A stretch of 64,000 bases of DNA from Microbacterium sp. SORGH_AS_0969 (GTDB lineage Bacteria; Actinomycetota; Actinomycetes; Actinomycetales; Microbacteriaceae): the NCBI RefSeq assembly GCF_030818255.1, contig NZ_JAUTAG010000001.1, positions 1-64,000 on the forward strand. Direction: 5' to 3'. A model generated the notes under the pieces. That model was not told the origin of the DNA. It worked only from the letters and a program-made list of their open reading frames with translations, and did not search any database. The translations under genes and the position numbers were made by a program. Below, in pieces: positions 4,149 to 8,926 of this stretch (position 1 is the first letter of the stretch; the number at the start of each line of letters is the position of its first letter).

Positions 4149-4371
4149 CGTTCGCTTTCCGTGAGGAGGAAGAAGGGATGCCGACGGGATCGGCGCGACG
4201 AACGAAGAGTTCACCTGGAGTTCGACACCCGTTCACCGAGGTCGCGTGGAAATCATGTCACCGGCGACCACGACGGTCAAACCGGGCGGCCCGAGGCCGC
4301 GGCATCCGCAGGTTCTTCCCGGCTGGGGAACGCCCAGGCGGAGTGTCGGTGCGGCCGACTACCGTAAAGGG

Positions 4372-6486
4372 GTGACCGATATCGACGTTTCGTCCGTTCC
4401 GCCCGTCGCCGCCCGTCGTCCCGTCCCCCGCTCGCACCATGGTGACACGTTCGACGATCCCTACGAATGGCTGCGCGCGAAGGACGACGCCGAGGTCGTG
4501 GCGCACCTCGAGGCCGAGAACGCCTACACCGACGCGCGCACCGCGCACCTGGCATCCCTCCGCGACGAGATCTTCGGCGAGATCAAGGGACGCACGCTCG
4601 AGACCGACCTGTCCGTCCCCGTTCGTCGCGGCGACTGGTGGTACTACGGACGCACGGTGGCCGGTGCCCAGTACGGCATCCAGTGCCGCGCTCCCCTGAC
4701 CGCGCCCGACGACTGGACCCCGCCGCAGCTCTCGCCCGACGAACCCGTCGCCGGCGAGCAGGTCCTCTTCGACGGCAACGTCGAGGCCGAGGGCACCGAC
4801 TTCTTCTCGCTCGGCAGCTTCGAGATCTCGAACGACGGCACGCGCATGCTCTACGGCATCGACGTCGCCGGCGACGAACGGTACACCGTGCGTGTGCGCG
4901 ACCTGATCACGGGCGAGACGCTCCCCGACGAGATCCCCGGCACGTTCTCGGGGGCGACGTTCTCCCCCGATGGACGCTTCATCGTCTACACCACCGTCGA
5001 CGACGCGTGGCGTCCCGACACCGTCTGGCTGCACGAGATCGGCACGGCGGTGGATGCCGACGTGCAGCTGTTCCACGAACCCGACGAGCGGTACTGGGTC
5101 GGCGCCGACTTCACGCGCAGCGACCGGTATCTCGTCATCGGCGTCGGATCGTCGATCACCTCGGAGGATCGCCTGATCGATGCTGACGACCTGCGCGGCG
5201 AAGCCCGCGTCGTCTGGCCGCGGCGCGAGGGCGTCGAGTACTCGGTCGACCACGCGGTCGTCGACGGCGAAGACGTGCTGTACATCCTCCACAACGACGG
5301 AGCTCTCGATTTCGAGCTGGTCCGGGTCTCGGCATCCGATCCCGAGGGACCGCGCGAGGTCGTGATCCCGCATCGCGTGGGCCAGCGCCTGCTCGGTGTC
5401 GACACCTTCCGCGACTGGGGTGTCGTCGCCTACCGGCGCGACGGTCTCGCCCGCCTCGGCCTGCTCTCGTACGCCGACGGAGCGGTCGACGAGATCGCGT
5501 TCGATGAGCCTCTCTACAGCGTCGGGACCGGCGGCAACCCCGAGTGGGCACCGCCCGTCCTGCGCCTGGGCTACGGCTCGTTCGTGACCCCCGGCACCGT
5601 GTACGACTACGTCATCGCGACCGGCGAGCTGCTCCTGCGCAAGCGACAGCCTGTCCTCGGCGGCTTCGACCCCGCCGACTACGGGCAGGCCCGCGTCTGG
5701 GCACCCGCCGACGACGGCACGCGAGTGCCCGTGTCGCTCGTGTGGAAGCGCTCGTTCGGCGAGCCCGGCTCGACACCGCGACCGGTGCACCTCTACGGGT
5801 ACGGCTCGTACGAGCACTCCATCGAGCCCGGATTCTCGGTGCCGCGCCTGTCACTGCTGGACCGTGGCGTGATCTTCGCGGTGGCGCACGTGCGCGGCGG
5901 CGGAGAGATGGGGCGCCAGTGGTACGAGGACGGCAAGCTCCTCGCCAAGCGCAACACGTTCACCGACTTCGTCGCCGCGGGGCGCCATCTGGTGTCCGAG
6001 GGCTACACGACCCCCGATCGCATCGTCGCCGAGGGCGGCAGCGCCGGCGGCCTGCTCATGGGCGCCGTGGCGAACCTCGCGCCGGAGCTGTTCGCCGGCA
6101 TCCTCGCCGACGTGCCGTTCGTGGACGCGCTGACCACGATCCTCGACCCGTCGCTCCCCCTCACCGTCATCGAGTGGGACGAGTGGGGCGACCCGCTGCA
6201 CGACGCCGACGTGTACGCGTACATGAAGTCGTACTCGCCGTACGAGAACGTGCGCGAGGGCGTGGAGTACCCGCGCATCCTCGCGGTCACATCGCTCAAC
6301 GACACGCGCGTGCTGTACGTCGAGCCCGCGAAGTGGGTCCAGCGCCTGCGCGAGGTCGGCGCCGACGCCCTGCTGAAGTGCGAGATGGTCGCCGGCCACG
6401 GCGGCGTCAGCGGCCGCTACAACGCGTGGCGCGAGCGCTCGTTCGAGCTGGCCTGGCTGCTGGACGTGCTGGGGCTGGCCGAGTAA
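4372..6486 (+). CDS. ptrB: oligopeptidase B (S9A serine peptidase)
   Basis: Cytoplasmic prolyl-oligopeptidase-family serine peptidase, 704 residues, cleaving short peptides after basic residues. An N-terminal beta-propeller (about residues 70-410) precedes the alpha/beta hydrolase domain. The catalytic triad is visible: Ser557 in GGSAGG, Asp644 in SLNDTRV and His676 in AGHGG. Length fits oligopeptidase B (about 690-720). The start is the GTG at 4372, preceded by TACCGT and six bases (leaderless pattern); the frame is open further upstream but without coding character. Divergent from pit with about 220 bases between. Prolyl oligopeptidase is the alternative, but the domain order and motifs fit OpdB better. 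Confidence 0.88.
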   Translation: MTDIDVSSVPPVAARRPVPRSHHGDTFDDPYEWLRAKDDAEVVAHLEAENAYTDARTAHLASLRDEIFGEIKGRTLETDLSVPVRRGDWWYYGRTVAGAQYGIQCRAPLTAPDDWTPPQLSPDEPVAGEQVLFDGNVEAEGTDFFSLGSFEISNDGTRMLYGIDVAGDERYTVRVRDLITGETLPDEIPGTFSGATFSPDGRFIVYTTVDDAWRPDTVWLHEIGTAVDADVQLFHEPDERYWVGADFTRSDRYLVIGVGSSITSEDRLIDADDLRGEARVVWPRREGVEYSVDHAVVDGEDVLYILHNDGALDFELVRVSASDPEGPREVVIPHRVGQRLLGVDTFRDWGVVAYRRDGLARLGLLSYADGAVDEIAFDEPLYSVGTGGNPEWAPPVLRLGYGSFVTPGTVYDYVIATGELLLRKRQPVLGGFDPADYGQARVWAPADDGTRVPVSLVWKRSFGEPGSTPRPVHLYGYGSYEHSIEPGFSVPRLSLLDRGVIFAVAHVRGGGEMGRQWYEDGKLLAKRNTFTDFVAAGRHLVSEGYTTPDRIVAEGGSAGGLLMGAVANLAPELFAGILADVPFVDALTTILDPSLPLTVIEWDEWGDPLHDADVYAYMKSYSPYENVREGVEYPRILAVTSLNDTRVLYVEPAKWVQRLREVGADALLKCEMVAGHGGVSGRYNAWRERSFELAWLLDVLGLAE

Positions 6487-6521: not shown

Positions 6522-6573
6522 ATGTCCCACTTTGTGCAGATCTGGAGCCTCCTTCCCGCACAAAATGGGACAT
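6522..6573. repeat. 52-bp palindromic element, copy 1
   Basis: Arms of 16 bases (ATGTCCCACTTTGTGC at 6522-6537; its complement at 6558-6573 with one mismatch) enclose a 20-base centre beginning AGATCTGG and containing GGAGCCTCC. First of four elements of identical 16+20+16 geometry arranged two on each side of the DUF559-domain gene. Confidence 0.9.
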
Positions 6574-6594
6574 GGTTTTGACAGTGCGCTCAGC

Positions 6595-6646
6595 GTGTCC
6601 CCATTTGTGCAGATACGGAGCCTCCTTTCTGCACAAAGTGGGACAT
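6595..6646. repeat. 52-bp palindromic element, copy 2
   Basis: Same geometry as the element 21 bases to its left: arms at 6595-6610 and 6631-6646, centre starting AGATACGG and containing GGAGCCTCC. The centre is nearly identical to that of copy 1 but differs from those downstream of the gene. Confidence 0.9.
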
Positions 6647-6753
6647 GAGCCGTCGGAACCGCTGTTCCTCCCCCGCGCGGCGATAGAAGAGGTCATCCAC
6701 GGATAACGCGATCGGGTGAGCAGCGGCACGCGCAACACCGCCATGCTCGGCGG

Positions 6754-7647
6754 ATGGTCGACGAACCTCGCATCTTCTCCGTTCGGGATGCCGTGGCCTC
6801 GGGCCGCTCCCGCTTCGCGCTGCGTCACGTCGGTGTCAGGGCGCCGTACAGTGGCGTCCGCTCATCCGCTGCACCGCCCGCAGTGGACGACCTCGAGGCA
6901 CGCGCGGCGGAGTACGTCCCTCTGCTCCGGAGCGGGCAGTTCTTCAGCCACGAGACGGCGCTGGGGCTGCTTGGCGTGCCGCTTCCGCCTTTCCCTTTCG
7001 TCCCCGGCATCCACGTGTCGGCTCATCGTCCAGTTCGCGAGCCCCGCGTGAACGGCATCCTCGGACACCGTCTGCAGGCACGGGATGCCGCGACGCTCCT
7101 GACGCGGCGTGGCTGGCCGGTCGAGCATCCCGTGCGTGCGTGGCGGCAATGCGGGACGCTGTGGAGAATCGACGACCTCGTCGCAGCCGCGGATTTCCTC
7201 CTCACGGACGCCGTGCCACGAATCGAGGCGGACGAACTCGCCGCGGAGATCGCGCGCATGGGCGACACGCGGAAGCTCCTCCTCACGCGGGCCCTCAGCC
7301 TCAGTCGCTTCGGTCCGCGCTCCGCCTCTGAGACACGGCTACGGTTGCTGCTGATCCGTCACTCTCTCCCGGAACCCGAGATCTCCGTGGTTCTCCGTGA
7401 TGCGAGCGGGACCTTCGTCGCCGAGCTCGATCTCGCGTATCCCTCGTGGAGGGTGGCCGTCGAGTACGACGGGCGCGTCCATGCCGAGGACATGCGCCAG
7501 TTCGCTCGGGACGCCGACCGCTGGGATGCCATTCGGGAGTGCGGTTGGGAGCACGTCCGCATCCTGTTCCACCACACGCGAGGAGATGGCGCAGTGGCGG
7601 TCCGAAAGGTGCGCGAGGCGCTCCGGCGTGCGGGCTGGCAGCCCTGA
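6754..7647 (+). CDS. DUF559-domain protein with AbiEi-like N-terminus
   Basis: Protein of 297 residues. The C-terminal third matches the DUF559 (Vsr-like, PD-(D/E)XK nuclease fold) family: ELD at 224-226, EYDG at 237-240, followed by a DRWDAIRECGWEHVRIL-type helix-strand. The N-terminal part resembles the AbiEi/winged-helix region usually found in front of DUF559 in actinobacteria, with FFSHETALGLLG near residue 68. Biochemical role unknown; nuclease activity is inferred from the fold and the acidic residues. It is bracketed by two pairs of 52-bp palindromes. The ATG at 6754 has no clear ribosome site, and an out-of-frame GTG at 6716 has the leaderless pattern (TAACGC plus six), so the exact start is uncertain. 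Confidence 0.75.
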   Translation: MVDEPRIFSVRDAVASGRSRFALRHVGVRAPYSGVRSSAAPPAVDDLEARAAEYVPLLRSGQFFSHETALGLLGVPLPPFPFVPGIHVSAHRPVREPRVNGILGHRLQARDAATLLTRRGWPVEHPVRAWRQCGTLWRIDDLVAAADFLLTDAVPRIEADELAAEIARMGDTRKLLLTRALSLSRFGPRSASETRLRLLLIRHSLPEPEISVVLRDASGTFVAELDLAYPSWRVAVEYDGRVHAEDMRQFARDADRWDAIRECGWEHVRILFHHTRGDGAVAVRKVREALRRAGWQP

Positions 7648-7655
7648 CGCGAATC

Positions 7656-7707
7656 GTGTCCCACTTTGTGCAGAAAGTCGCGCCGGAACCGGCACAAAGT
7701 GGGACAT
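7656..7707. repeat. 52-bp palindromic element, copy 3
   Basis: Arms at 7656-7671 (GTGTCCCACTTTGTGC) and 7692-7707 enclose a 20-base centre starting AGAAAGTC. It begins eight bases after the stop codon of the DUF559 gene. Arm sequence matches copies 1 and 2; the centre does not. Confidence 0.9.
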
Positions 7708-7749
7708 GCCCGGCGCGAGGAAGGCATCGGCACTCCCCAGGCGAGGGCG

Positions 7750-7801
7750 ATGTCCCACTTTGTGCAGAAATCTGCTGCCGGATCAGCACAAAGTGGGACA
7801 C
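7750..7801. repeat. 52-bp palindromic element, copy 4
   Basis: Arms at 7750-7765 (ATGTCCCACTTTGTGC) and 7786-7801 enclose a centre starting AGAAATCT. Its centre shares AGAAA and GCCGGA with copy 3. It lies 42 bases after copy 3. Confidence 0.9.
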
Positions 7802-7897: not shown

Positions 7898-8926
7898 TCA
7901 GCCGAACAGCGCCGCGGCCTCTTCGTATCGGTACAGAGGAACGCTGTTGAGCTCACCCAGCGCGTCGGCGAACGGCACGCGAACGATGTCGGTGCCGCGC
8001 ATCGCGACCATCTGGCCCCAAGCGCCCTCGTGCAGGGCGTCGGCGGCGTGCAGGCCGAGACGCGTCGCGAGCACGCGGTCGAACGCCGAGGGCGAGCCGC
8101 CGCGCTGAATGTGTCCGAGGACCGTCGCGCGGGTCTCGATTCCGGTGAGACGCTCGATCTCGGGGGCGAGCAGCTCGCCGATGCCGCCGAGGCGGGGGCG
8201 GTTGAAGGCGTCGAGGCCCTTGTCGCTGAAGGCCTCGTCCATACCCTTGAGCTTGAAGCCCTCCGACACGACGACGAGGGGCGCGCGGCCGCGATCGTGC
8301 GCGCGGGTGACCTGCTCGACGATCTCTTCGATCGACATCGGAACCTCGGGGATGCAGATCACGTGGGCGCCCGCCGCGATACCGGCGTGCAGCGCGATCC
8401 AGCCGACGTGACGCCCCATGACCTCGGCCACCATGCACCGCTGGTGCGAGTCACCGGTGGTGCGGAGGCGGTCCATGGCATCCGTCGCGATGTTCACGGC
8501 CGTGTCGAAGCCGAACGAATAGTCGGTGGCGCGAAGGTCGTTGTCGATCGTCTTGGGAACACCCAGCACGTTGATGCCGTCCTTCGACAGACGGTCGGCC
8601 GCGGCGAGGGTCCCCTCGCCACCGATGGCCAGGATGCCGTCGAGCCGGTGCCCGTACATCGTCTTGGAGATGTTCTCGGCACCGCCGCGCACGCCCTCGT
8701 AGGGGTTCGTACGGCTGGTGCCGAGGATCGTGCCGCCGACCTTCGACAGACCCTTCACCTCGTGGCGGGTCAGCGGGAAGAAGTCGCCGTCGACCACGCC
8801 TCGCCATCCGTCACGGATGCCGACGAACTCGATGTCGTAGTTGGTCGTGCCCTTCAGCACGACGCCACGGATGACCGCGTTGAGACCGGGGCAGTCGCCG
8901 CCGCTGGTCAGGATGCCGATCTTCAT
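7898..8926 (-). CDS. pfkA: 6-phosphofructokinase (actinobacterial group III type)
   Basis: Phosphorylates fructose 6-phosphate to fructose 1,6-bisphosphate in glycolysis; 342 residues, the usual length. GILTSGGDCPGLNA near residue 4 is the nucleotide loop, PKTIDND near residue 125 contains the catalytic aspartate region, and GRHVGW, RATVLGHIQRGG follow. The phosphodonor site reads GGEGT: glycine at the position that is aspartate in PPi-dependent enzymes, pointing to ATP, while the lysine in PKTIDND is seen in both PPi enzymes and ATP enzymes of actinobacterial group III. ATP use is therefore likely but not proven. GAGGA lies about nine bases before the ATG. Confidence 0.93.
   Translation of the reverse strand: MKIGILTSGGDCPGLNAVIRGVVLKGTTNYDIEFVGIRDGWRGVVDGDFFPLTRHEVKGLSKVGGTILGTSRTNPYEGVRGGAENISKTMYGHRLDGILAIGGEGTLAAADRLSKDGINVLGVPKTIDNDLRATDYSFGFDTAVNIATDAMDRLRTTGDSHQRCMVAEVMGRHVGWIALHAGIAAGAHVICIPEVPMSIEEIVEQVTRAHDRGRAPLVVVSEGFKLKGMDEAFSDKGLDAFNRPRLGGIGELLAPEIERLTGIETRATVLGHIQRGGSPSAFDRVLATRLGLHAADALHEGAWGQMVAMRGTDIVRVPFADALGELNSVPLYRYEEAAALFG

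Follow-up and report, generated by a model that had tools for sequence, protein, structure and literature searches.

The first 64 kb (the window) of the single-contig 3.94-Mb genome of Microbacterium sp. SORGH_AS_0969 (below, the own genome or G000) carry a gene for a 297-aa protein between a prolyl oligopeptidase (POP) gene and the phosphofructokinase gene pfkA, and the gene is flanked by two 50-bp palindromes upstream and two downstream. We lean towards the view that the gene and the palindromes are a two-part module resembling the REPtrons of repetitive extragenic palindromes (REPs) and RAYT transposases, with the encoded nuclease acting on the palindromes. The pairing of gene and palindrome is specific to protein clade and to position, and palindromes of two types are dispersed, mainly in genomes where the cognate gene exists. 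A likeness to REP/RAYT partnerships with a different nuclease family had been noticed in a sequence-only reading of the window; it survives a motif-free test in which 127 loci of homologues were set against shuffled and genomic controls, and is upheld as well by matched arms across the gene, by an arm type that goes with the protein clade and by dispersed copies that track the cognate gene.

The features of the locus are as follows.

6754..7647, + strand: gene of the 297-aa AbiEi-like/Vsr-like protein
6754..7308, + strand: part of this gene, predicted AbiEi-like (PADLOC AbiEi E 0.0057; structure match of the model)
7315..7644, + strand: part of this gene, predicted Vsr-like (structure match of the model; residue conservation)
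6523..6572: palindrome 1, arms of 15 nt, centre of 20 nt, 3′ arm (6558-6572) with one mismatch
6596..6645: palindrome 2, 5′ arm (6596-6610) with two mismatches, centre similar to the palindrome-1 centre
7657..7706: palindrome 3, perfect arms, starting 9 nt past the stop codon
7751..7800: palindrome 4, perfect arms
4246-6486, + strand: POP gene (Peptidase_S9 E 3.8e-92 and 7.1e-62)
7898-8926, - strand: pfkA (PFK E 5.9e-103)

The arms of the four palindromes are TGTCCCACTTTGTGC and its complement around a 20-nt centre. They had been described as 16+20+16 elements with the same arms everywhere; the palindromes are real, but the arms are 15 nt long, the sixteenth, outermost pair not always being formed, and they are exact in six of the eight half-sites only, the other two having one and two mismatches. 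Matches to the arm at up to three mismatches number eight in the window against 0.57 expected, a count reached in none of 100 shuffles, and the RNA-fold z values of the four palindromes are -3.65, -6.70, -5.00 and -6.72.

The 297-aa protein matches PF18741 (MTES_1575, E 2.5e-5) and PF04480 (DUF559, E 0.022), both below the curated cut-offs, and gave no meaningful family in an NCBIfam search and no match in a sequence search of the PDB. Its predicted model (pLDDT 91.8) has two domains, an N-terminal half like the AbiEi antitoxin and a C-terminal half like Vsr and homing endonucleases. The Vsr-like fold proposed earlier for the C-terminus is thus confirmed by structure matches of the model, and the acidic and histidine residues of this domain are conserved. 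The gene probably encodes a DNA-cutting enzyme. The name MTES_1575 refers to a large Microbacterium testaceum fusion protein with a novel Vsr-like domain (PMC3710099); the passages of that paper on the fusion protein contain no mention of palindromes.

Palindromes at homologous loci

A protein search of 295 genomes of the genus gave matches at E <= 1e-35 in 116. There were 132 homologue loci (L184-L315), the ten weakest at 30-39% identity, and 127 remained once five with too little flanking sequence were set aside. A motif-free detector (palindromes of at least 44 nt with a score of at least 11, within 420 nt upstream or 350 nt downstream) found a palindrome upstream at 80 of the 127 loci, downstream at 80, on both sides at 59 and on either side at 101. 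Shuffled flanks of the same loci gave 2/635 upstream, 3/635 downstream and 0/635 on both sides, the outer ends of the same loci 5/236, and 420-nt windows of the own genome 26/484, four of these 26 being read as clade-B palindromes (see below). Strict-motif searching had been misleading, as paralogues seemed to be free of palindromes, and motif-free detection corrected this.

At least one palindrome was present at 8/8 loci with 70% or more identity to the window protein, at 33/43 with 54-70%, 28/36 with 47-54%, 26/30 with 43-47% and 6/10 below 43%. The same was seen at 53/69 loci whose stretch includes a POP or pfkA homologue and at 48/58 that lack one; bracketing is not tied to one locus. The nearest upstream element ends at a median distance of 128 nt from the start codon (quartiles 115-150, start codons at homologue loci being estimated from the alignment) and in 0/80 cases within 60 nt of it, and the first downstream element a median of 15.5 nt past the stop codon, 59/80 being within 60 nt. 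The gene lies in one orientation at 33 of 66 loci and in the other at 33. Since both orientations occur, we asked whether the gene often inverts between its palindromes, and rejected this, as the tree needs only two changes. At one locus (L193, genome G218) seven 51-nt palindromes with a 63-nt period occupy positions 1200-1376 and 2519-2758, in groups of three and four that flank a gene for a 51%-identical protein.

Outside the genus, 16/43 loci have a palindrome, a rate that is rough and not comparable with the above because about nine of the 43 gene calls are visibly wrong, three of the miscalled loci (L398, L401 and L413) being among the 16. Palindromes on both sides, with arms that look alike by eye, occur on an Arthrobacter plasmid (L418) and at L411, and three loci of one other genus (L380, L381 and L385) share the upstream arm GCGATTTG.

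The POP or pfkA homologues in the same stretch at 69/127 loci look like vertical inheritance at one site, and the earlier suggestion of a mobile element finds no backing here as far as a unit moving as a whole is concerned. AbiEi-Vsr genes are common in the POP-pfkA interval across the genus; they belong to at least two subfamilies and are found in either orientation. In 14 other genomes this interval is 1.0-1.5 kb long and has no match to the window protein; its longest frame reads as a related protein in nine (L149, L150, L151, L154, L156, L157, L160, L169 and L170). Two of these second-subfamily proteins were scanned against Pfam and both have MTES_1575 and DUF559, one also AbiEi_4 below the cut-off. 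The hidden Markov model of the main family matches L166 at E 1.7e-8 and the other second-subfamily loci not at 0.05. With a palindrome minimum of 40 nt in these 14 intervals, L151, L166, L169 and L170 have palindromes of other arm types near both ends of the interval, alike by eye, and at least one palindrome was found in each of L149, L154, L157, L160 and L162; no palindrome was found in L148, L150, L156 and L168, and the repeats of L152 look like coding sequence. In eight further genomes the interval is short and contains no family gene, and six of these eight sites are without a palindrome, while L173 has a 41-nt repeat of a different look.

Arm type, protein clade and dispersed copies

Arms from opposite sides of one gene resemble each other more than those of different loci. 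Where both flanks carry palindromes (58 loci), the best arm similarity from one side of the gene to the other has a mean of 0.883; between loci the mean is 0.607, and there the similarity drops with protein distance from 0.94 to 0.49. A similarity of at least 0.75 was reached by 51 of the 58 same-locus pairs compared with 7.7% of cross pairs at a protein distance above 0.45. The agreement of the arms on the two sides of the gene requires either side-to-side copying or a shared constraint. Over 98 loci the Mantel correlation of arm and protein is r 0.706, a value attained in 0/999 permutations.

The palindrome kind of the window, which we call type A, is also dispersed in the own genome. By a fixed criterion 25 elements have a 20-nt centre. 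Four are those of the window, and the other 21 form ten clusters, often as tandem arrays of 2-4 units; outside this criterion are one further element at 892 kb and degenerate ones at 848 and 1506 kb. According to a heuristic gene finder the clusters are intergenic, with one possible overlap at L021, where a predicted frame starts inside the array. Type-A half-sites with up to two mismatches all lie between 6.5 kb and 1.774 Mb, and so in the first 45% of the contig; clade-B palindromes occur beyond this as well (2.30 and 3.50 Mb). GC skew in 20 samples of the own genome did not locate the origin.

Centre identity averages 76% within clusters (18 pairs) against 40% between them, where the highest value is 80% (282 pairs, better of two orientations). 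The earlier remark that pairs look locally duplicated while the arms are kept thus holds in the whole genome. The middle of the type-A arm is variable (TGTCCC-nnnn-TGTGC). Among 131 distinct type-A elements, which were chosen by 22 arm positions so that arm conservation reflects the choice and the centre was left free, 124 have a centre of exactly 20 nt, 8-39 nt being allowed. Centre positions 18-25 pair at 0.16-0.35, which we take to be chance, and the arm middle pairs at 0.52-0.77. Pattern-selected clade-B elements are 51 nt (18) or 52 nt (25) long. The fixed spacing together with the free centre sequence suggests a protein that reads two half-sites on duplex DNA.

Across the genus, the exact type-A arm pair occurs in 6/295 genomes and a relaxed form in nine, the own genome included. 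Six of these nine type-A-positive genomes are among the eight with a protein of at least 73% identity (p 2.7e-9). G053 and G093 have such a protein, and their flanking palindromes read CGTGC in at least one arm. The pattern of the palindromes that go with another protein clade, clade B (GTGTCCA...), occurs in 33/295 genomes, the reversed control in none. At least three clade-B palindromes (3-58 copies each) are present in 24/295 genomes, 21 of which carry the clade-B gene (Fisher p 1.1e-22). The clade-B protein was assigned to 29 genomes by identity and E-value, with up to eight candidates per genome scored, and the clade is monophyletic in the tree for the 24 loci that were fetched (support 0.977).

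Several gene-palindrome pairs can coexist in one genome. PF18741 has six matches below E 1e-4 in the own genome, one of which falls in a frame of some 1240 aa and is excluded here, and three further weak matches at E 0.3-1.4. Four of the five standalone family genes have a palindrome, of four different kinds; apart from the window gene these are the clade-B gene at 2.16 Mb, which is flanked on either side, and the genes at 2.286 and 2.31 Mb, each with one upstream. A palindrome like that of the 2.31-Mb gene is also found at 1.306 Mb. Another kind of long palindrome, CATAAACGC...GCGTTTATG, occurs in the own genome at L144:2372 and L145:12849 (about 3.70 and 3.93 Mb), and several copies of a repeat with CTGAGCTTGTCGAAGGGACC-like arms at L136:3925, L136:4052 and L145:7509-7659. 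A scan of viral contigs found nothing; a scan of genome contigs gave 38 stretches, from Microbacterium or one Actinomycetota metagenome-assembled genome.

One orthologous intergenic site was compared, partly by eye, in G000 and seven other genomes; G024, G020, G016, G009, G006 and G053, for which the segment came out empty, are outside the count. The site has two units in G000 and three in G044, two of the latter recognized by eye and all three also present in a second listing; G104, G093 and G234 each have one degenerate element, seen by eye below the detector threshold, of other arm types than those of G000, and no element was seen in G007, G055 and G027.

Possible mechanism and alternative explanations

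If the nuclease and the palindromes are a REPtron-like module, the protein would act as a dimer whose N-terminal AbiEi-like domains bind both conserved half-sites of the cognate palindrome, and its Vsr-like domains would nick or cleave the DNA within the 20-bp centre, or within a hairpin or cruciform formed by the element. Repair of the break would copy the palindromes, multiply them in tandem and occasionally spread them, and this copying would keep the arms uniform and let the centres drift. The protein may also control its own expression by binding next to its gene. The nuclease gene would be inherited vertically, mostly at one chromosomal site, and the palindromes would depend on it. A broader proposal, which we make tentatively, is that AbiEi-Vsr nucleases are a second, independently evolved REPtron class in Actinomycetes, each with its own palindrome family, cutting in the variable 20-bp centre of the duplex palindromes, thereby maintaining, multiplying and spreading them, and co-diversifying with them into several mutually non-interfering pairs within one genome.

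A number of observations weigh against the module. The sequence-only reading had counted palindromes far from the gene and homologues without palindromes against such a link, and both are found: most type-A clusters of the own genome are not at a family gene, although REPs too occur far from their partner gene, and at the detector threshold 26/127 loci have no palindrome, compared with the 101 that have one, so that the bracketing rule is not absolute. The family gene at 287 kb in the own genome has no palindrome either, and L176, one of the short POP-pfkA sites without a family gene, has a long one. Eight of the 29 clade-B genomes have fewer than three palindrome copies. Six of these (G150, G220, G225, G236, G267 and G070) escape the clade-B pattern because their palindromes read CACCC, not CACGC, in at least one arm; the other two are G050 and G140. 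Conversely, three draft genomes of 20-270 contigs (G053, G178 and G240) have at least three clade-B palindromes and no assigned clade-B gene, and G027, G104 and G218 are positive for strict type A without a close clade-A protein. Comparison of alleles, which had been proposed as a check, showed that copy number and arm type vary. It yielded no clean empty site and no clean insertion marked by a target duplication, as the intergenic DNA diverges too rapidly. The centres of different own-genome clusters, at most 80% identical, give no sign of recent spread. The fixed 20-nt centre suits duplex binding better than a RAYT-like processing of hairpins, and part of the correlation between arm and protein is expected from plain linkage. 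Binding, cleavage and copying or movement by the protein are what we infer from the pairing, and we count this against the module as well.

An alternative explanation, which we consider rather unlikely, is that the palindromes are only operators: the AbiEi-like domain would regulate its own gene through them, the dispersed copies would be a small regulon or have an architectural role, and the nuclease would act elsewhere, for example in defence. The AbiEi-like N-terminal fold of the model is in keeping with this, as is the fixed spacing of the half-sites, which suits a dimer that binds duplex DNA, and AbiEi has been described to autoregulate through inverted repeats (PMC7319586). However, with start codons estimated from the alignment, none of the 80 nearest upstream palindromes ends less than 60 nt short of the gene, as many loci (80) have a palindrome downstream, at a median of 15.5 nt past the stop codon, and tandem arrays of 2-4 units and up to 58 copies per genome are not what an operator would lead one to expect.

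It is improbable that the palindromes are passive repeats, a family like REPs or miniature inverted-repeat transposable elements (MITEs) spread by some other enzyme, with the genes merely lying in repeat-rich intergenic regions. The dispersed type-A copies are intergenic, the possible overlap at L021 apart, as REPs and MITEs are, the L176 palindrome stands without a family gene, and movement by the family protein is itself conjectural. Against this, the arms vary with the protein clade and agree on the two flanks of a gene, the outer ends of the same loci gave only 5/236, and of the eight gene-less POP-pfkA sites six have no palindrome, L173 has an unlike repeat and L176 has one. Least probable, and very unlikely in our view, is that hairpins serve as terminators or stabilizers for transcripts of the nuclease gene and adjoining genes: the RNA folds are stable and palindromes often follow predicted gene ends, but there is no Rfam match, a single terminator-like site was found where shuffles average 0.5, pairing in the middle of the arm is limited to 52-77% of elements, and the arm type tracks the protein clade, something a terminator would not require.

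Relation to known systems and significance

RAYTs are HUH transposases of the IS200/IS605 type that act on GTAG-tagged, single-stranded palindromes (PMC3733652, PMC8266576). As in REP/RAYT systems, the nuclease gene here lies between palindromes that recur outside genes elsewhere in the genome, arrays occur and there are several gene-palindrome pairs. Unlike a RAYT, the enzyme has a modelled Vsr-like fold, not that of an HUH/Y1 tyrosine transposase, and unlike REPs, the elements have no GTAG end and keep a fixed centre of 20-21 nt. By eye, no GTAG tag was seen at the ends of the type-A elements of the window or of the rest of the own genome, and a search of the own genome for the RAYT family PF01797 gave no match at E <= 10. 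The system, as we read it, is REPtron-like in the way it works, yet it is not a RAYT.

The modelled window protein has the AbiEi fold that marks the AbiE type IV toxin-antitoxin systems; unlike in these, the AbiEi-like part is fused to a nuclease domain, and no AbiEii nucleotidyltransferase toxin gene is adjacent, the flanking genes being Peptidase_S9 and PFK. It differs from the Vsr mismatch endonuclease by its extra N-terminal half and the palindromes. The homing endonuclease I-Bth0305I belongs to the EDxHD family. Unlike it, the window gene is a free-standing chromosomal frame between two separate genes, outside any intron, intein or split target, and complete palindromes stand on both sides in place of a split target site. 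Among the matches listed in the open-licence literature, titles and the beginnings of abstracts contain no earlier description of the pairing, which is apparently an undescribed counterpart of REP/RAYT on an unrelated enzyme.

If this is true, partnerships of a dedicated nuclease with dispersed palindromes would not be peculiar to HUH transposases and would have arisen at least twice. It would provide a candidate function for a common family of unknown genes, the DUF559/MTES_1575 proteins of about 300 aa, and could explain where short palindromic repeats come from in a genome with no detectable RAYT. With several protein-palindrome pairs per genome, the persistence of REP-like elements would become testable.
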